From positions 1 to 64,000 of the forward strand of contig PBGL02000008.1 in assembly GCA_002718995.2 (NCBI GenBank): a DNA stretch of 64,000 nucleotides, read 5' to 3'. The first letter of the stretch is position 1; each line of letters begins with the position of its first letter. The notes beneath the pieces were generated by a model. It worked only from the letters and a program-made list of their open reading frames with translations, was not told where the DNA came from and did no database searches. This document shows positions 37,146 through 46,197 of this stretch, piece after piece. A program made the translations under genes and the position numbers. The DNA is from Methanobacteriota archaeon. Lineage in GTDB: Archaea; Thermoplasmatota; Poseidoniia; Poseidoniales; Thalassarchaeaceae.

Positions 37146-37757
37146 ATGATGCGAGTTCTATTCGCACATGGGTTCGAAGGCGGTCCATCCGGGTCCAAGC
37201 CGACATTCATGAGAGAAGTACTGGGGTGGGATGTAACTGCTCCAGTAATGTCGGAACTCGGATGGGATATCGGGAAGCAAACAGAGGTGCTCCTCAAGAG
37301 AATTGATGAGTCAGACTACGACTTAGTGATCGGTTCTTCCATGGGCGGACTTGCAGCGGCCAATGCCTCATCACTTAGGAGAGATTCTAGTTTCCGAGTT
37401 CTTCTTATCGCTCCCGCCTTCGGACTTTCAGATGCATACACCAACAGACTAACTGAACAGGAACTGTCTGAATGGAGGGAGTCTGGAACTAGGGAGTATC
37501 GAGGCTTCGAATTGGACATAGAACTGGGATGGGAGTTCATGGAGACTGCAGAGAGGATGTCGTGGCCGGCCCCGGGACACATGACTACGATTGTACATGG
37601 TAGACTAGATGATGTCGTTTCGATTGAAGTATCCAGGAGGGTGGCTGGAGAGAGCGATCTCGTTGAGTTGGTTGAGATTGACGATGGTCACAGGATGAAA
37701 GGCTGCTTGCCTCTAATAGCCGATCTGGCTTCTGAACTAATGGCCCGTGGATCCTAG
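37146..37757 (+). CDS. YqiA-like alpha/beta hydrolase
   Basis: A 203-residue alpha/beta hydrolase of the short YqiA/UPF0227-like type. Features: VLFAHGFEGGPSGSKP (oxyanion-side HG), nucleophile elbow IGSSMGGLAA (Ser), and a C-terminal catalytic His in VEIDDGHRMKG; an Asp in VHGRLDDVVS is the likely acid. Probably a serine esterase or thioesterase with unknown substrate. The ATG pair at 37146/37149 leaves two equivalent starts. Its 3' end overlaps the convergent livF gene by 21 bases. Confidence 0.8.
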   Translation: MMRVLFAHGFEGGPSGSKPTFMREVLGWDVTAPVMSELGWDIGKQTEVLLKRIDESDYDLVIGSSMGGLAAANASSLRRDSSFRVLLIAPAFGLSDAYTNRLTEQELSEWRESGTREYRGFELDIELGWEFMETAERMSWPAPGHMTTIVHGRLDDVVSIEVSRRVAGESDLVELVEIDDGHRMKGCLPLIADLASELMARGS

Positions 37758-38456
37758 GAAGTACTCGCCAATCTCTGGGTCGGTGAGTATCTTCTTAGCG
37801 TCCCCTGTATGCACGATCTTGCCATTTGAAACGATGTATCCCCTATCTGACCTGGATAGAGAAAGTCTGGCGTTCTGCTCCACGATAAGCACGGTTATTC
37901 CTTGTTCTCTCAGGGAGTCGATGCGCTCGATTATCTGCTGCTGGTACAGAGGGGAGAGGGCTGCAGTTGGCTCGTCGAGAAGCAGGAACTTGGGATCTGA
38001 AATTAGGGCTCTGGAGATTGCCAGCATCTGCCTCTCGCCCCCTGACAATGAGGCTGCTAGGTCGTGCACTCTGTCCTTGAGGTCGGGGAACATTTCCATT
38101 GCCCTTTCGATCCTTTCATTGAGTAATGCGCTTGAGAGGCTATTACCGCCCATCTGCAGGTTCTCCAAGACGGAGAGTGAGGGGAATACATTGTCTACCT
38201 GCGGGACGTAAGCTATGCCTTGGTTCACCAATTGATCTGTTCTCCACCCCGAAACATTGGTCCCCCTGTATGAGACCTCTCCCGAGTAATATGTGGCGAT
38301 CCCGAAAATTGTCTTGATGAGCGTTGACTTACCACAGCCATTGGGGCCAATTATCGTGACAAACTCCCCCTCATCGACATACATGTCTATCCCATAGAGA
38401 ATCTGGACCGAACCATAGCCCCCCTCTAGGCCGTTTACTTCGAGAACTCTTGTCAT
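37737..38456 (-). CDS. livF: Branched-chain amino acid-type ABC transporter ATPase LivF
   Basis: A 239-residue ABC ATPase. Walker A GPNGCGKST, Q-loop FPSLSVLENLQMGG, signature LSGGERQML, Walker B FLLLDEPTAAL and the switch His region match LivF. It starts MTRVLEVNGLEGGYGSVQILYGID, typical of the family. It energises the LivHM permease. The start overlaps the livG stop by 4 bases, so it is translationally coupled in an operon read right to left. Confidence 0.93.
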   Translation of the reverse strand: MTRVLEVNGLEGGYGSVQILYGIDMYVDEGEFVTIIGPNGCGKSTLIKTIFGIATYYSGEVSYRGTNVSGWRTDQLVNQGIAYVPQVDNVFPSLSVLENLQMGGNSLSSALLNERIERAMEMFPDLKDRVHDLAASLSGGERQMLAISRALISDPKFLLLDEPTAALSPLYQQQIIERIDSLREQGITVLIVEQNARLSLSRSDRGYIVSNGKIVHTGDAKKILTDPEIGEYFLGSTGH

Positions 38457-39259
38457 TCATCATCCTCCGATGGGTCGCCCGCTGCTCCAAGATACGCCTC
38501 GATAACTTCCTTGTTTGCCCGGACCTCGTCAGGAGTCCCTTGCATCAGGATCTCCCCTTCGTTCATAACGACGATTTTGTCAACGCCCTGCCTGAGTATG
38601 AAGTCCATGTTGTGCTCTATGATCAACACCGAGATTCCAGTTTCATCTACGATGTTCCTAAGGTTGTTGAAAATCTTCATCGCTAGCGGGCCGGCGACTC
38701 CCGCAACTGGCTCATCGAGAAGGAGGAGGTTTGGGTCACCCATCATGGATCTCCCTATGTCAACTAGCTTGCTCTGCCCTCCTGACAGTTCGCTTGTGAG
38801 GTTGTGTGCCATATGAGGTACCTCTAGCTGGTCCAGGACCCCATATGCCCTCGAGAGTCTCTCCTCTTCGGCTGGGTTGGAAGGCATCAGAAGGGACCTC
38901 GCAAGTTCCTTGATTGATGATCCGAATTGCCTCCTCGGAGGGACCATGAGGTTCTCTATAACAGTCATCTGACGCCAGAGATTTGTGTGCTGGAATGTCC
39001 TGGTCATCCCAAGATTCTGAATCTGATCTGGCCTCATATACGATACGTCGTTTCCGAACATCTCGATGCTTCCTGATGTCTGTTCGAGAAGCCCGCTGAT
39101 ACAGTTGAAGGTCGTCGACTTACCACATCCGTTTGGGCCTATTAGGCCGACGAACTCTCCCTTTCCTACCGTGAATGAGACGTCCTTGACGGCTACTAGC
39201 CCGCCAAACTCCTTCCTGAGCTTGTCGACCTTTAGAACTGGATCAGTCACCGGCAACAC
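38453..39259 (-). CDS. livG: Branched-chain amino acid-type ABC transporter ATPase LivG
   Basis: A 268-residue ABC ATPase with Walker A GPNGCGKSTTFN, the LivG-specific RPDQIQNLGMTRTFQHTNLW Q-loop region, signature LSGGQSKLVDIG, Walker B LLLLDEPVAGV and a His switch in LIIEHNMDF. The C-terminus is acidic. It overlaps the permease-fusion gene by 17 bases and livF by 4 bases. It is the second ATPase of the Liv-type importer. Confidence 0.93.
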   Translation of the reverse strand: MLPVTDPVLKVDKLRKEFGGLVAVKDVSFTVGKGEFVGLIGPNGCGKSTTFNCISGLLEQTSGSIEMFGNDVSYMRPDQIQNLGMTRTFQHTNLWRQMTVIENLMVPPRRQFGSSIKELARSLLMPSNPAEEERLSRAYGVLDQLEVPHMAHNLTSELSGGQSKLVDIGRSMMGDPNLLLLDEPVAGVAGPLAMKIFNNLRNIVDETGISVLIIEHNMDFILRQGVDKIVVMNEGEILMQGTPDEVRANKEVIEAYLGAAGDPSEDDE

Positions 39260-42200
39260 CTCCAGAGGGCCTCTCAGGCCGGACAGGGACTTCTGGGAGA
39301 AGTCCCTTGGAATTGAACTTGAGAGAGAACAGCATCAAGCAGCCGATTAGGAGAAGCTTGACGTAAAGCATGTCGGCACTAACGACACCACTGAAGAATG
39401 ACTCTTCTATCGACCTCTCTCCGAGAACTATGGCTCCGAAAGAGAAAATTGCCGCACCTGAGGCTCCAATGTCCAATAGCCTCTCGGAACGCACGACGAA
39501 TCCAGCTGCCATTACGATAGCGAAAACCTTGGCTGCCTCCCATTGATTCGTGAATAGCCATTCGAAGAGTGAGTCGATTCTCGAAGCAGTTGTGTGGAGG
39601 GGGAGGTCTGGGGATCCCTGTCCTGCCACTAGTACATTGAAGACGAACTCCATCAGGACGATGATGAATGCCCCGACCACCATTCCCCTATTGTTGGAGG
39701 TTCCGCCAATGATGAATGCAGCCCAGACGAGGAAGGTGGAGCGGGCCGGAGACATGAATGTTGGTTCGAAGCCTGTGAGCTTCCAAGCCCAAATCGCGCC
39801 TGCAAGAGCGGCAATGGCTGCTCCGAGAGCGAGGCTTGCCGCCTTGTGAGTCAGTATGTCATGTCCATGGTGCTGAGCGACTTCCTCGTCCTCTCTAATC
39901 GCCTTCAGGACCCTGCCCCAAGGAGAGGATAGGAGATTAGAAAGCAGCTTCCAGACCAAGGCGACTGAAATCAATGAAATTACCATCAGAATGAACAGAT
40001 AAGGCGCTGGTTCACCAAGGTTCAGTAGTTCTGCAACTTGATTTGCAGGTGTGTCGATTAGCGAGATGTCGTCTCTGCAGGCATCTGGGCTGACCCACTG
40101 GGAGTCTGGACCGGGCTCCTCGGAGCCACAGAACCACCAATTCTCCAGCGGCAGCGGGTAGGCAGAGATTCCGATAGCTGAGCCCACGGCGCCAACCCTG
40201 AGCAGGGGCTCTCCAGCCAGGAGTACCCTGACTATCTCGCCTAGGGAAATTGTGACGATTGCGAAGTAGTCAGTTCTGAGCCTAGCGGTCGGATACGCCA
40301 ATGCCCAGCCCAAAAATGCGGCTAGTGCCACCCCCATCATCGTGGCTGGAAGTATCCCCCATCCATACCCGTGCAGTTCCTCTGGTGCTGTGAGTATTCC
40401 CACTGTGATGGTCCCTATTCCGACGAAGAAGATGACGCCGAAGTTGACCATGCCAGTGTATCCGGTATGCAGGTTCAGTGAGAATGCCATCAATATGAAG
40501 ATGGCCAGTGAGACTAGGACGTTGGAAACCTGGAGGGTCTTCTTCCACCTGAAGTCGTCAGTCTCAGCTATTGGCAGCCACAGAAGGAAGAGCAGTAGGA
40601 TGGTCAAGAGGATAGAGAAGAATATCCAAGACCCGATTGGACTCTCTCTGCCGTACTTCTCGAGCTTGCTTCTCTGATCGGGAGAGCCTCTTGTGATGAA
40701 GGTCAGGGCATTGGACGAGGAGGAGGAAATAATCGAGGACGCCTTCTCTCTGGGAATTGCTGATATCTCCCGGAGTTGTTCCGTTATACTGTTCACTGCC
40801 GTACGGTGCCTTCTATCGAAATCTGACCATTTTCTGAGCATTCCCGTCTTTGCTGTGGATATTGTTTCTGATATCGATGACTGCAGCGATTGTATTTGGT
40901 TCCATGAGCTTTCTACGTGCTTGTTCTTAGAGTCTGAATCCGAAAGGATGCCTATGCCCTCGTAGATTGAGTATCCCCATAAGGCGATAATCGCACCGGG
41001 CCAGATCAAGTCGCCTAGGTCTACGATGAAGTTGACAAGTCCTATTTCGAAGTTCATCATGCTCAACCAAGACTCATGCATGGATGCAACTGCGTCGGAC
41101 ACCCACTGTTCGGCCTCGAAGGGGGAAAGCTCGCTCGGGGGGCTCATCTGATCGAGTAGGTGGGACTCTGTGAGTGGCGAGTCCTCGAGAAGTAGTGTTC
41201 CGTCGTTTCTCCCCGTCATGACGGCTAGGTTGGTCTCCGCGAATTCGTTGGAGGCGCAAGAGTCCGCACAAGCCCCGTCCGCGAAGGAGTTCCTCTCGAC
41301 GAAGTCGCTGAGTCTGTGGAATACGTAGACAGCGATGGCAGCGGCAGAGAAGCTCTGCATCCGGTGAGTACGGTTCGACCACCAGTGATGGAGGCCGAAT
41401 ATTCCAGTGGGCATTATGGCTAGAGCTGCCGCTATCTTCTGCGTCTTGTCCGAGTCATCCTCCTTGCGCTTTCTGAGCCTCTCTATCTTCCATTTCTCAT
41501 ATGCATCACCTATTCCCTCTGGCATAATCATCAGGATGGCGACGAGGAAAATGTATGGCATCACACCATCGAGAGCGGAGTAGTTTGATCTCCCCAGAGG
41601 CATTCCTATCCCTATCAGGACCGGAGACGATAGAGCCCTTACGAACCCAACAATCAGAGATCCCACTATGGCGCCTGGGACGGAGCCTATGGTGCCTAGG
41701 ACAATGATGGCAAAGGAAGGCAACAGTAAGGTGAATGCGGTTTCGGGGTTGAACCTCAGGGTCAATGCAAAGATAGCCCCGCCCATCCCGGAAAGTCCTG
41801 CGGACAGGAATGCGCTGGTCAGGTGGACCCTTTCGACGTTGATTCCGCTGCTGGCAGCTAGCTCTGGGTTGTCAGCGACGGCCCTCATTCTCCTTCCTAG
41901 CCTGGTCTTGTTCAGTAGGAGAAGGAGTAGGAGTACTGCTGAGAAGATGACTACTGGGACTGCTCCCTTGTAGTATGCGTAGTTGGTGGTGGCTTGAGTG
42001 ACACAGTCTGTTGTAGTGTCGTAGAGCTCGATGGCTGGTTTCGAGGAATCACTGACGATTCTAGAGAGGATTGGCTCACCTGTCACCTCGTCGACGCCTG
42101 TTTGCTCGCAGTTGAAGTGCGTGTACGTCCTGTCATCCTCCAGCGTCCTCTCCCCTAGGTTGAAGCGTAGCTTAGTGGTTGGAAACTCCCACCTGAGGTT

Positions 42201-43001
42201 TGGCATCCTCCAGTCGCCCTCTGGCTCGAACATGTTCCTGCTAGCCCCGAACCTGAGGTAGGTGAGTGCCCGTAGGATAAGAGCGACGCCTAGTGATGCT
42301 ATCATCATCACCTGGGGGCTCGTGTTGGTCTTCCGGAATCCCTTGTAAACGAGTCTGTCGATAATAATGCCAGCTATGCCTGTGAGTACGAAGGCAGCCA
42401 CCAAGGTGAACAGGAGGACGGACCATGTCAGTACCCCGTCCTTGGTAGTAGAGAGGTTTGACATGGGGAAGAAGTAGTCAGTCCAAATCATGATCATGGA
42501 GAGGTACATTCCAATCATGAAGAGCTCGGATTGGGCGAAGTTCCCGTATCTCTGAACTTTGTAAGTAAGAGTCAGTCCTATCGCTATTGCTAGGTATGTG
42601 GAGGACCAAGTCAGGGTGCCTGTTGAAATTGAGACGAGGTCTAGGGTGAATGACGCGTCTTCGCCTAGGCCCTGCAGCAGGATATCTAGTGAGAAGAATG
42701 TGATAGCGACCATGAAGATGGGAGAAAGCAGTATTGCGACTGTCCTCGGAATCCCGCTGGGAATGTCATCGAAGAGGACCTTGACAACTACGAAGCCCGC
42801 TGCTATGGACTCGACCAGTTGCAGTAGCCAGACCATGTCATTGGGAAGCCCCCCTCCCAGTAACTTGTCCAGAATATTGAGGGCCCCCAGACCATTTAGA
42901 GTCCCCAGAAAGTTAGCATCGATGAACAGTAGGGCTGCGATAATCAGTCTGCGGGTCCCCCTAGGGAGCTCCGAGAACTGTTTACGGGCTTCGTGCAGCA
43001 T
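39243..43001 (-). CDS. Fused LivH-LivM permease of a branched-chain amino acid-type ABC transporter
   Basis: A 1252-residue membrane protein. Residues about 120-515 are LivH-like: LTYKVQRYGNFAQSELFMIG and the cytosolic coupling region GRRMRAVADNPELAASSGIN. Residues about 790-1240 are LivM-like: HTGYTGMVNFG, YPTARLRTDYFAIVTISLGE and GRVLKAIREDEEVAQHHGHD. Between them is a roughly 275-residue linker with a TM2-like pair (AAALAIMPTGIFGLHHWW), further membrane helices and a Ser/Lys-rich helical segment. LivH and LivM are normally separate genes; here the frame is continuous. It forms the translocation pore for the LivFG ATPases and the adjacent binding lipoprotein. Confidence 0.9.
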   Translation of the reverse strand: MLHEARKQFSELPRGTRRLIIAALLFIDANFLGTLNGLGALNILDKLLGGGLPNDMVWLLQLVESIAAGFVVVKVLFDDIPSGIPRTVAILLSPIFMVAITFFSLDILLQGLGEDASFTLDLVSISTGTLTWSSTYLAIAIGLTLTYKVQRYGNFAQSELFMIGMYLSMIMIWTDYFFPMSNLSTTKDGVLTWSVLLFTLVAAFVLTGIAGIIIDRLVYKGFRKTNTSPQVMMIASLGVALILRALTYLRFGASRNMFEPEGDWRMPNLRWEFPTTKLRFNLGERTLEDDRTYTHFNCEQTGVDEVTGEPILSRIVSDSSKPAIELYDTTTDCVTQATTNYAYYKGAVPVVIFSAVLLLLLLLNKTRLGRRMRAVADNPELAASSGINVERVHLTSAFLSAGLSGMGGAIFALTLRFNPETAFTLLLPSFAIIVLGTIGSVPGAIVGSLIVGFVRALSSPVLIGIGMPLGRSNYSALDGVMPYIFLVAILMIMPEGIGDAYEKWKIERLRKRKEDDSDKTQKIAAALAIMPTGIFGLHHWWSNRTHRMQSFSAAAIAVYVFHRLSDFVERNSFADGACADSCASNEFAETNLAVMTGRNDGTLLLEDSPLTESHLLDQMSPPSELSPFEAEQWVSDAVASMHESWLSMMNFEIGLVNFIVDLGDLIWPGAIIALWGYSIYEGIGILSDSDSKNKHVESSWNQIQSLQSSISETISTAKTGMLRKWSDFDRRHRTAVNSITEQLREISAIPREKASSIISSSSSNALTFITRGSPDQRSKLEKYGRESPIGSWIFFSILLTILLLFLLWLPIAETDDFRWKKTLQVSNVLVSLAIFILMAFSLNLHTGYTGMVNFGVIFFVGIGTITVGILTAPEELHGYGWGILPATMMGVALAAFLGWALAYPTARLRTDYFAIVTISLGEIVRVLLAGEPLLRVGAVGSAIGISAYPLPLENWWFCGSEEPGPDSQWVSPDACRDDISLIDTPANQVAELLNLGEPAPYLFILMVISLISVALVWKLLSNLLSSPWGRVLKAIREDEEVAQHHGHDILTHKAASLALGAAIAALAGAIWAWKLTGFEPTFMSPARSTFLVWAAFIIGGTSNNRGMVVGAFIIVLMEFVFNVLVAGQGSPDLPLHTTASRIDSLFEWLFTNQWEAAKVFAIVMAAGFVVRSERLLDIGASGAAIFSFGAIVLGERSIEESFFSGVVSADMLYVKLLLIGCLMLFSLKFNSKGLLPEVPVRPERPSGGVAGD

Positions 43002-43089: not shown

Positions 43090-46000
43090 CTAAGCAGTTG
43101 TTATGCCGTTGACTGGGTCCCAGTTCCTTGCACAGTCGTACGAGACAGTGTCGGTAGTTGCATCGTGAGAGAACTCACCTATGCAGAAACCGGCTGCAGG
43201 TACGTCACCGTTGCCCAGGAAGCTGATTGCTCCGCTGGCTCCATTCCATCCCTGGCCAGTACCCATGACGGCCATGTTGGCGTCAAGTCCGGGTGTGGCT
43301 AGAGCGGTGAATGCCGCGAAAGCAACGATGGTCACAGCGTCGAAAGCCTCAGCGGTGTAGATACCGCCAGCGCAATCTGGGCTCTGGGCGCACAGTGCTG
43401 CGAAGACATATCCGACCTCGGACATGCCGCCTGCGGCTGCGGGCTTGGTAGCGATGATGCCATCGACAAGTGACTTGTCGGACATGTCTGCTGCAAGGCC
43501 CTCCTCTGCGATTCCATCAGCGCCGTAGATAGCTCCAGAGTAACCCTGGGAAGCCATCTCCTCGATGATAGCAGCGCCGTCGGACGCGTATGATACCATC
43601 ATGACTGATGTGCAACCTGCATCGATGATCGACTGCACGTTGCCGCTGTGGTCGGTTGTGTCCTCTGCGTAGCCAATCTGGGTGCAGATGTTGTCAGCTC
43701 CCATGTTTGCCACGAATGCATCGGCCAGTCCAGCGCCGTACGCGTTGGTCATGTGCAGAACAGCGACGTTGTCTTGCATGTCTGCGGCCATGACGTCAGC
43801 AACCACTGATCCCTGGAATGCGTCACTTGGGACGACTCGGAAGAATCCTGGGTATGCTGCTGCGTCGGACAGGGCTGGGCTCGTGCTCGCGTAGGATACC
43901 TGTGGTATTCCTGCTGCGGCTAGAACGGCGTTAGCGCCCATCGAGGCACCGGAGCAGGCTGCTCCGACTACGCCCCAGACGCCGGCGTCGACTAGTGCCT
44001 GGCCGGCTGTTCCGCCCATGGTACCATCGCAGCCAGAGTCAGCGTAGACTATCTCGAACTGCACTCCGTTGCTGTATCCGATCGTGTTGGCTAGGCCGAC
44101 AGCGATCTGGGATGCTGCAACGAAACCTGGTCCGTACACCGCGATTGGGCCGGTAGCGTCGTTCAGGAAGCCGATCTTTACAGTGGCTCCTGCCCATGCT
44201 ACTGCGGAGACGCCAGCAGTGGCGTCCCACATCCTGTCGCAGTTGAAGTACTCGCCGTAGGTTGGCACGTGGTGGAAGGTGCAGACATCGTAGCCTGACC
44301 CGCCAACGTCACCGTTGTCCAGGAAGGAGTGGGTTCCACTCTCTCCAGCGTAGCCGTCACCGACCATGTCGATGTGCATAGCCATGTTAGCTCCATCCTC
44401 GTGCATTGCAGCGTGACCGATCATCATTACCGCGTCGTATGCCTCTGCGGTGAAGATTCCAGTCGAGCAGACGTCGTCTGCTGCGCAAGCGTCAGTGAAA
44501 GCGGTTGAACCGCCAGCTGCGGCTGCTCGTGGTCGTGTGACCTCGATGCCGTTTGCTGCTGCAGGGTTGGTGTAGTCGTTCAGTGCGGCCTCTCCGGCCA
44601 TTCCGTCAGCGCTGAAGATTGGGATTGCTGCTCCCATGACTGCCATGGTCTCTACGATCATGGCTCCGTCGGAGGAGTACGATCCTAGGAACACGGAGTC
44701 GCAACCAGCGTCCATAACTGCCTGAACGGCAGCTGCGAAGTCGGTGGTTGTATCCTCGTATCCAGCCTGTAGGCAGACGTTGTCTGCGCCCAGGTTGGCT
44801 GCGACTGAATCTGCTAGACCTGCTCCGTACGCGTTGGTCATGTGCACGACTGCGGTGTTGGAAGCGCCGCTTCCTGCAATCATGTCAGCTGCTGCCTGGC
44901 CCTGTAGTGCGTCGCTTGGCACAATCCTGTAGAAGTGAGGGTATGCAGTTGCGTCGCTCAGAGATGGCGATGTGCTGGCGTAGGAAATCATTGGGATTCC
45001 TGCAGCCGATAGGATAGCGTTAGCACCCATCGAAGCACCAGAGCAAGCTGCTCCAGCCACTGCCGCAACTCCTGCGTCCGCTAGGGACTGTGCAGCTGCC
45101 TGTGCCATTGTACCGTCGCATCCCGAGTCAGCCTCGATGACCTCGAAGACGTAGTCGTCTCCCATTGCGTTCAGGTCATTCATTGCTGCTGTCCACGCGA
45201 AGGTGAACGGGGCTGCGAACTGGGATATAGGTCCAGATGCGTCATTTAGGAAACCTAGCTTGATGGTCACTGCTGGGTCGTCCACGACAGGAGCCTCGAA
45301 CATTGGGTTCTCGGTTCCCATGTAGTGAGCCGCGATCTCGTCCACTAGTGCGTGGGCGATGTCAGCGTCGAAACCGACTACGGATCCATCGTCAGCGTAG
45401 CTCTCGAATGGGGGGTAGAACGGGTCGGTGCACAGCCTGAGGCTGCCGGACTCCAGGACTGCTGTCAGGTCGCTGCCCTCGCTTGGCGATGGGTATGCGG
45501 TTGCCGTGTCAGCGGTCGTGTCGTCAGCCAGTGTGACTGCTCCGTCGAACCAGGCGCCGTAGATGGCGTCGTACTCTCCGGATGCAACCATGGCGCCTAT
45601 AGCGACGTTCAGTGCGTCCAGAAGCTGCCCGGAGGATTCGCGTGTTGCGAGTCCAAAGTTCTCGTCAGAGAAGGTGACCATCAGGTCGCCCTCCAGGGAG
45701 AGAACAGGGGCGTCTCCCATAGCGTAGTGCGCGTCACCGTTGTTAATAGCGGCGATTACCGAAGGGAAGTCGTCGAAAGCGCTGATCGTAGCCATACCTA
45801 GGTTCTCATTGGCGTATAGGTCCGAGGTGGTCCCGGACTGTACGGCAATTGTGGTACCTGCTGCGTTCAGGTCTGAGACATCCGATATAGCGTCTGCACC
45901 GTCTGCACCGATCACACCCTGGCTACTTGTGTAGTAGGCCCTGGTGAAGTCGACGACCTGGTCGCGCGCTTCTGTCTTCGTCATCGCCGAGATTATGGCA

Positions 46001-46197
46001 TCGCACATCTCGCCGGCATTCAGGTTGGGGATTATTGGATCCCAGCCGGACTCTACAAAGTCGGCACTAACGTCACTGGCCATGGTAATTGACCAGTCAT
46101 CTTCGGGTTCCTCATCATCCCCACCAAGGCATCCGGCGAAAGCTGCCGCCAGCATGCTCATGGTAAGCATCATTGCAATCATCTTGTTGTTCTTCAT
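43090..46197 (-). CDS. Composite substrate-binding lipoprotein: permuted SBP_bac_3-like domain plus two LivK-like domains
   Basis: About 1035 residues. A lipoprotein signal with lipobox FAGC (Cys23) is followed by three binding modules. Residues ~40-230 resemble SBP_bac_3 from its second strand to the end: SGWDPIIPNLNAGEMCDAI, MTKTEARDQVVDFTRAYY, then YDAIYGAWF. The canonical N-terminal segment of that fold (LRLCTDPFYPPFESY, then GSVVGFDADIAHAL) appears only afterwards, at ~250-288, suggesting circular permutation. Two Peripla_BP_6 (LivK) domains follow, starting at VTIKLGFLNDASGPI (~310) and TVKIGFLNDATGPIAVYGPG (~671); they look like tandem paralogues sharing ADSGCDGTM and ISYASTSP/VSYASTSP. 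It is the surface receptor of the adjacent LivHMGF importer. The start at ATG 46197 gives a clean signal peptide; 46224 adds nine residues. Confidence 0.85.
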   Translation of the reverse strand: MKNNKMIAMMLTMSMLAAAFAGCLGGDDEEPEDDWSITMASDVSADFVESGWDPIIPNLNAGEMCDAIISAMTKTEARDQVVDFTRAYYTSSQGVIGADGADAISDVSDLNAAGTTIAVQSGTTSDLYANENLGMATISAFDDFPSVIAAINNGDAHYAMGDAPVLSLEGDLMVTFSDENFGLATRESSGQLLDALNVAIGAMVASGEYDAIYGAWFDGAVTLADDTTADTATAYPSPSEGSDLTAVLESGSLRLCTDPFYPPFESYADDGSVVGFDADIAHALVDEIAAHYMGTENPMFEAPVVDDPAVTIKLGFLNDASGPISQFAAPFTFAWTAAMNDLNAMGDDYVFEVIEADSGCDGTMAQAAAQSLADAGVAAVAGAACSGASMGANAILSAAGIPMISYASTSPSLSDATAYPHFYRIVPSDALQGQAAADMIAGSGASNTAVVHMTNAYGAGLADSVAANLGADNVCLQAGYEDTTTDFAAAVQAVMDAGCDSVFLGSYSSDGAMIVETMAVMGAAIPIFSADGMAGEAALNDYTNPAAANGIEVTRPRAAAAGGSTAFTDACAADDVCSTGIFTAEAYDAVMMIGHAAMHEDGANMAMHIDMVGDGYAGESGTHSFLDNGDVGGSGYDVCTFHHVPTYGEYFNCDRMWDATAGVSAVAWAGATVKIGFLNDATGPIAVYGPGFVAASQIAVGLANTIGYSNGVQFEIVYADSGCDGTMGGTAGQALVDAGVWGVVGAACSGASMGANAVLAAAGIPQVSYASTSPALSDAAAYPGFFRVVPSDAFQGSVVADVMAADMQDNVAVLHMTNAYGAGLADAFVANMGADNICTQIGYAEDTTDHSGNVQSIIDAGCTSVMMVSYASDGAAIIEEMASQGYSGAIYGADGIAEEGLAADMSDKSLVDGIIATKPAAAGGMSEVGYVFAALCAQSPDCAGGIYTAEAFDAVTIVAFAAFTALATPGLDANMAVMGTGQGWNGASGAISFLGNGDVPAAGFCIGEFSHDATTDTVSYDCARNWDPVNGITTA

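Follow-up and report, generated by a model that had tools for sequence, protein, structure and literature searches.

The window, i.e., the whole 64,000-nt stretch of DNA that was analysed, encodes at positions 43090-46197 the lipid-anchored receptor that belongs to a LivHMGF operon; in this protein, a complete, circularly permuted SBP_bac_3 domain (type II, Cluster F) for amino acids is joined to two LivK domains. We hold with high confidence that this is the correct reading of the gene, that the permuted domain would have arisen by tandem duplication and trimming, and that it belongs to one archaeal clade that holds three permuted orders (CP-1, the type found in the window, CP-2 and CP-3) and two proteins of normal order. 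The importer to which the permuted domain delivers lies outside this confidence and is considered separately below. SBP_bac_3 is among the commonest binding folds, and the carriers of the receptor are abundant surface-ocean archaea.

Architecture of the receptor gene and its operon

The ORF is open throughout, starts with ATG and encodes 1035 aa. The genes for LivH-LivM, LivG and LivF lie downstream of it on the same strand. The features are:

43090..46197 (-): whole gene, lipoprotein of 1035 aa (signal peptide, permuted SBP_bac_3, LivK, LivK)
46129..46197 (-): signal peptide with lipobox LAAAFAGC and Cys23, read from the sequence and kept in homologues
45496..46074 (-): permuted domain, first-written part (segments N2-C1-C2), residues 42-234, SBP_bac_3 38-131; pocket residues W52, S70, T73, R78, S121, T124 and D162
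45442..45495 (-): closing linker and N-terminal helix (YPSPSEGSDLTAVLESGS), connecting the natural C-end with the natural N-start
45307..45441 (-): permuted domain, last-written part (segment N1, strand 1 and helix 1), residues 253-297, SBP_bac_3 1-36; pocket residues D258 and Y261
44203..45270 (-): LivK-type domain 1, residues 310-665
43102..44187 (-): LivK-type domain 2, residues 671-1032
39243..43001 (-): LivH-LivM permease pair in one 1252-aa chain, with two PF02653 stretches
38453..39259 (-): LivG-type ATPase (ABC_tran and BCA_ABC_TP_C)
37737..38456 (-): LivF-type ATPase (ABC_tran)

The SBP_bac_3 profile (PF00497) scored 89.8 bits, above its curated cut-off of 26.4, and matched in two pieces, profile positions 38-131 coming first (window 45544-46071, E 1.1e-19) and positions 1-36 further C-terminal (45334-45441, E 9.5e-6). 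The initial annotation had proposed that the domain starts in its middle and that the opening segment is written last, and this order was found; its placement of the opening segment after the rest of the domain also stands, with the coordinates corrected from about 45332-45445 to about 45307-45441 (residues 253-297). In an unpermuted domain the opening segment leads into a strand that here forms the N-terminus of the mature protein. The lipid anchor that had been proposed is borne out by the lipobox, and the two LivK-type domains that had been described as paralogous were assigned by PF01094/PF13458, C-terminal of the permuted domain, and are 51% identical to each other.

A receptor with LivK domains (Peripla_BP_6/ANF_receptor) is thus encoded together with LivHMGF, which is the natural partner of such domains. 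The single LivH-LivM chain has a long middle region that is largely hydrophilic. In relatives of the sister family (f2) and in some f1 relatives, the signal peptide is followed directly by one or two LivK domains, without the permuted domain, so that the latter was probably inserted behind the lipobox. A GC[MT]DATANNYNADAT.DDGSCTY repeat was seen in L023, L069, L071, L078 and their relatives, either at the junction between the lipobox and the permuted domain or at that between the permuted domain and LivK. An apparent N-terminal gap in one genome (G005) was rejected as an insertion, since it is a run of N. Another apparent mix of binding-protein classes was noticed by eye in G035 (L038, minus strand), where the lipoprotein encoded by a 1053-aa ORF joins a LivK domain to an apparent SBP_bac_5-like (oligopeptide-binding) domain.

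The permuted domain is complete and under purifying selection

On AncCDT-1 (5t0w), the first-written piece corresponded to residues 62-245 and the last-written piece to residues 14-61, with neither gap nor overlap. After rotation in silico, the sequence aligned with AncCDT-1 in a single stretch (E 4.7e-29), and with the binding domains of GlnPQ (E 8.5e-36). The cut lies in lobe 1, between helix 1 and strand 2. As judged from the AncCDT-1 tiling and the elements of the AlphaFold model, the secondary-structure segments of both lobes are all present, in the order N2-C1-C2-N1 and not the canonical N1-N2-C1-C2; hence, the domain is filed as a permuted variant of SBP_bac_3 rather than as a plain member.

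An AlphaFold prediction from 40 homologues (pLDDT 85.2, pTM 0.81) gave, in model numbering, a confident strand at the N-terminal end (21-26), low confidence for residues 30-38, and confident strand 1 and helix 1 at the C-terminal end (strand 229-234 and helix 253-270); the packing of this last-written segment was judged from the AlphaFold confidence alone. Among solved structures, Foldseek ranked type II amino-acid-binding proteins first; since its alignments follow the chain order, this result alone does not tell whether the permuted segment completes the lobe. On this model, strand 1 and helix 1 would complete lobe 1, as the initial annotation had anticipated, and we infer that the two lobes close into a Venus flytrap in vivo, around a pocket of the LAO/ArgBP type that would bind alpha-amino acids.

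Compared with AncQR (4zv1), the window reads D-Y-W-S-A-M-T-R-(S)-T-T-D at the pocket positions, which are invariant or nearly so in 20/20 CP-1 rows; among these rows R78, predicted to contact the ligand carboxylate, and D162, for the ligand amino group, are invariant. The predicted pocket is of the LAO/ArgBP type (Asp-Tyr-Trp-Ser-Thr-Arg-Thr-Asp), and its residues point to alpha-amino acids as the ligand class, so that the domain very likely binds amino acids. The dN/dS values between the window and five relatives were about 0.05-0.16 for both pieces; the permuted domain is under purifying selection.

A true circular permutation conserved in Thalassarchaeaceae

A profile built in the permuted order (A1) gave one continuous match in 70 or more genomes, most of those of six Thalassarchaeaceae genera, and CP-1 was found in about 79 of the 148 genomes of this family (Ca. 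Thalassarchaeaceae), with no match to the profile in the sister family f2. In the genome collection the carriers are named Ca. Thalassarchaeaceae or Thalassarchaeum (MGIIb). A scan of named public genomes with two peptide patterns, by which distant bacterial permutants would be missed, recovered the CP-1 order in 63 ORFs, and the architecture permuted SBP_bac_3-LivK-LivK is common to 46 complete public ORFs. The boundaries are therefore shared by homologues, with the same junctions in dozens of assemblies, and the suggestion that homologues might show the normal order, with this genome misassembled, did not hold. CP-1 is also complete in five isolates (AG-404-A19, AH-287-M04, AG-457-A01, AG-422-I20 and AG-313-L18), whose AG- and AH- names we take to be those of single-cell genomes. 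No residual DNA repeat was found within the DNA of the permuted domain. These data confirm the SBP_bac_3 domain as a true circular permutation conserved in Thalassarchaeaceae. A chance match was rejected because the order is conserved, and a persisting tandem in the window because there is no DNA repeat.

The initial annotation had left a choice between a permutation and the scar of a deletion between tandem copies. The permutation stood, and the two alternatives merge into one route, in which a tandem duplicate was trimmed, as relatives with tandem units (L184 and L203) suggest. These same relatives make a tandem origin likely and would also suit a dead scar, i.e., two broken SBP_bac_3 fragments left by a collapsed array and serving as a non-functional spacer. 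This is very improbable, because the pieces are exactly complementary, with nothing doubled or missing, the pocket residues are all retained and dN/dS is about 0.05-0.15; in addition, the fold is predicted confidently. That the order was produced by misassembly of a metagenome bin, for which the draft state of the window's genome (30 contigs) might speak, is refuted to the point of being scarcely conceivable, since dozens of assemblies made independently from many samples have identical junctions, as do the AG- and AH- isolates that resemble single-cell genomes, and the junction lacks any repeat that could mislead an assembler.

All four rotations and tandem forms occur in archaea

The chain orders of related domains were read with one 256-position profile in the canonical order N1 N2 C1 C2. 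The window type, CP-1, runs from profile position 59 to 256 and then from 1 to 60; CP-2, which is cut at the hinge and starts with the C-lobe, from about 127 to 256 and then from 1 to 131; CP-3 from 206 to 256 and then from 4 to 214; and the normal order from 1 to 251. Taken as a ring of four segments, the domain occurs in archaea in all four rotations, as read from the profile matches.

CP-2 was found in the genome that the window comes from (C14, L004) and in its relatives, in another family within its class (L227-L230), which is probably Marine Group III, and in Asgard archaea, namely L188 (Kariarchaeota) and L189, L202 and L184 (Heimdallarchaeota). CP-3 was found in one Heimdallarchaeote (L187). 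Many Asgard proteins have the normal order, as do two proteins of Thalassarchaeaceae, L037 (894 aa) and L084 (1219 aa); both are large proteins with LDL-receptor-A-like repeats (C...IP..W..DG..DC.DGSDE). The pocket residues are kept in the CP-2 domains of Asgard and of the probable Marine Group III, and in CP-3. An AlphaFold prediction of the CP-2 form from nine sequences (pLDDT 64, pTM 0.59) was not informative, so that CP-2 is defined by its sequence only.

Permutation by duplication predicts tandem forms (PMC3320104). Two CP-2 units stand in tandem in L184 and two normal units in L203, and other Thermoplasmatota carry three (L261, 823 aa) or four (L256, 1285 aa) normal-order SBP_bac_3 domains in one chain. 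No relative with one full and one truncated copy was seen among the loci scanned, a limited sample. In the proposed mechanism, the SBP_bac_3 domain would have been duplicated in tandem, and trimming of both ends of the duplicate would have left the permuted domain.

Candidate importers for the permuted domain

In Asgard archaea, the probable Marine Group III and Thalassarchaeaceae, the CP-2 and CP-3 genes adjoin a fusion of a YCF48 propeller with a HisM-type permease (PF14870 and PF00528), accompanied by a GlnQ-type ATPase where the contig is long enough, and the closest single-domain kin of CP-1 in other lineages lie beside the same YCF48-HisM and GlnQ-type importer. On contig C14 of the window's genome (G000, about 37.1-41.1 kb; L247:7122-11139), a CP-2 binding protein that lacks the pocket residues is divergent from the YCF48-HisM fusion and the GlnQ-type ATPase. 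The Thalassarchaeaceae CP-2 partner of YCF48-HisM has lost the pocket residues, whereas the CP-1 pocket is kept. Both CP-1 and the YCF48-HisM permease were present in 72 genomes, CP-1 only in 7 (among them G132 and G070), the permease only in 14 and neither in 55. This co-occurrence largely reflects shared ancestry; within six genera the association gave p 0.003, a signal that gaps in incomplete genomes might produce as well. Because of the CP-2/CP-3 adjacency, the pocket-less CP-2 partner and the co-occurrence, we tentatively favour a division of labour, close to an even call, in which the permuted domain would feed the separate YCF48-HisM/GlnQ importer and the LivK domains would feed LivHM.

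All three domains might instead feed the LivHMGF of the operon, so that three sites would serve one permease with a wider substrate range. The receptor does share a polypeptide and an operon with LivHM-LivG-LivF, and nearly every complete CP-1 ORF carries the fused LivK domains. This arrangement is nevertheless rather unlikely: Cluster F binding proteins dock on HisMQ-type permeases, the closest single-domain kin of CP-1 adjoin a HisM-type permease, and such a permease co-occurs with CP-1 while its own CP-2 partner is without a pocket. A sensing or regulatory role, in which the permuted domain would gate the receptor and deliver no substrate, is less probable still. Ionotropic glutamate receptors (iGluRs), in which an added Venus-flytrap domain plays a regulatory part, do carry LivK-type and SBP_bac_3-type domains in one chain, and weak Lig_chan-Glu_bd matches occur in domains related to that of the window, but no transmembrane or signalling module was found in the 1035-aa chain and the pocket is of the transport type.

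Order of events

Trees were built after rotating all the units to one order, and the careful trees did not include the pocket-less Thalassarchaeaceae CP-2 proteins, which have long branches. The permuted units grouped with the two normal-order Thalassarchaeaceae units in a single clade, apart from the remaining normal-order archaeal proteins (support 99/94; 99/97 with wider outgroups). The four orders on this tree imply at least four changes, so that, to go by the sequences, the chain order of the SBP_bac_3 fold has changed repeatedly within one archaeal clade. A constraint that placed all the normal-order proteins on one side was rejected (p 6.8e-6 and 0.003); hence, the clade has either returned to the normal order or acquired several of its rotations independently. 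The normal-order pair L037/L084 nested within CP-1 (98/95 and 98/92), but monophyly of CP-1 was not rejected (p 0.147), so that the pair is not strictly forced inside it; monophyly of CP-2 was not rejected either (p 0.30).

A possible course, put forward with some reserve, is that the chain ends walked around the fold. The hinge-cut form that Asgard archaea, the probable Marine Group III and Thalassarchaeaceae have in common would then be the source of two or more other rotations and, for two proteins, of a return to the normal order; in Thalassarchaeaceae the binding function of the HisM-type importer would have moved from its own permuted partner, which now lacks the pocket, into a LivK fusion that would serve two importers. 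Each rotation may also have arisen independently from normal-order ancestors, the Thalassarchaeaceae pair then being retained ancestors and not reversals, and we regard this as conceivable but doubtful; the survival of CP-1 monophyly in the test (p 0.147) and a similar number of events under parsimony are consistent with it, whereas the nesting of the pair inside CP-1 (98/95 and 98/92) and the rejection of all normals on one side argue against it. Whichever course was taken, all four rotations of one domain, together with tandem forms, in one clade are a rare series for permutation by duplication, and one in which it can be asked whether this process reverses.

Comparison with known systems

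No earlier report of a permuted SBP_bac_3 domain or of its fusion to LivK was found in the literature searched, which lacked most subscription journals. The amino-acid receptors of the group and the strong transcription of livK are treated in papers that do not describe the architecture (PMC9723583, PMC6336850, PMC6461757). In Thalassarchaeaceae, livK ranks with the most highly transcribed genes (PMC9723583), and this livK is probably the receptor of the operon in the window. Since these papers call the receptor simply livK, it would seem that the third binding site and the rotated order have so far escaped notice.

Natural circular permutation is already known, and it is the fusion of two binding-protein classes and the series of rotations that make this case unusual. 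The circularly permuted glucose-binding protein TpMglB-2 (Tp0684) of Treponema pallidum has been solved and binds glucose, and its class was proposed as 'Type Ic / Cluster Bc' (PMC4990184). Both are natural, tethered permutants kept in a clade, with the opening strands of lobe 1 now C-terminal. TpMglB-2 is a type I sugar binder (Cluster B) with a single domain and one permutation reported, whereas the domain of the window is of type II (Cluster F), with an amino-acid pocket, a LivK fusion and several rotations in its clade. With AncCDT-1, AncQR, LAO, HisJ and the GlnPQ binding domains it shares the sequence after rotation, the predicted two-lobe fold and the pocket residues, but differs from them in the order N2-C1-C2-N1 and in the fused LivK.

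As in LivK/LivHMGF branched-chain importers, LivK (here two domains), LivH, LivM, LivG and LivF are encoded in one operon; the differences are the permuted Cluster F domain added to the receptor and the joining of LivH and LivM in one chain. GlnPQ (6h30) likewise has more than one binding domain per chain, but its two normal-order domains are of one class and are fused to the permease, whereas the three domains described here are of two classes and are separate from it. In the iGluRs, LivK-like and SBP_bac_3-like domains also share one chain; the receptor of the window lacks an ion channel, has its domains in another order and carries an SBP_bac_3 part that is permuted with no pore interrupting it, and we claim no homology of architecture from this likeness.
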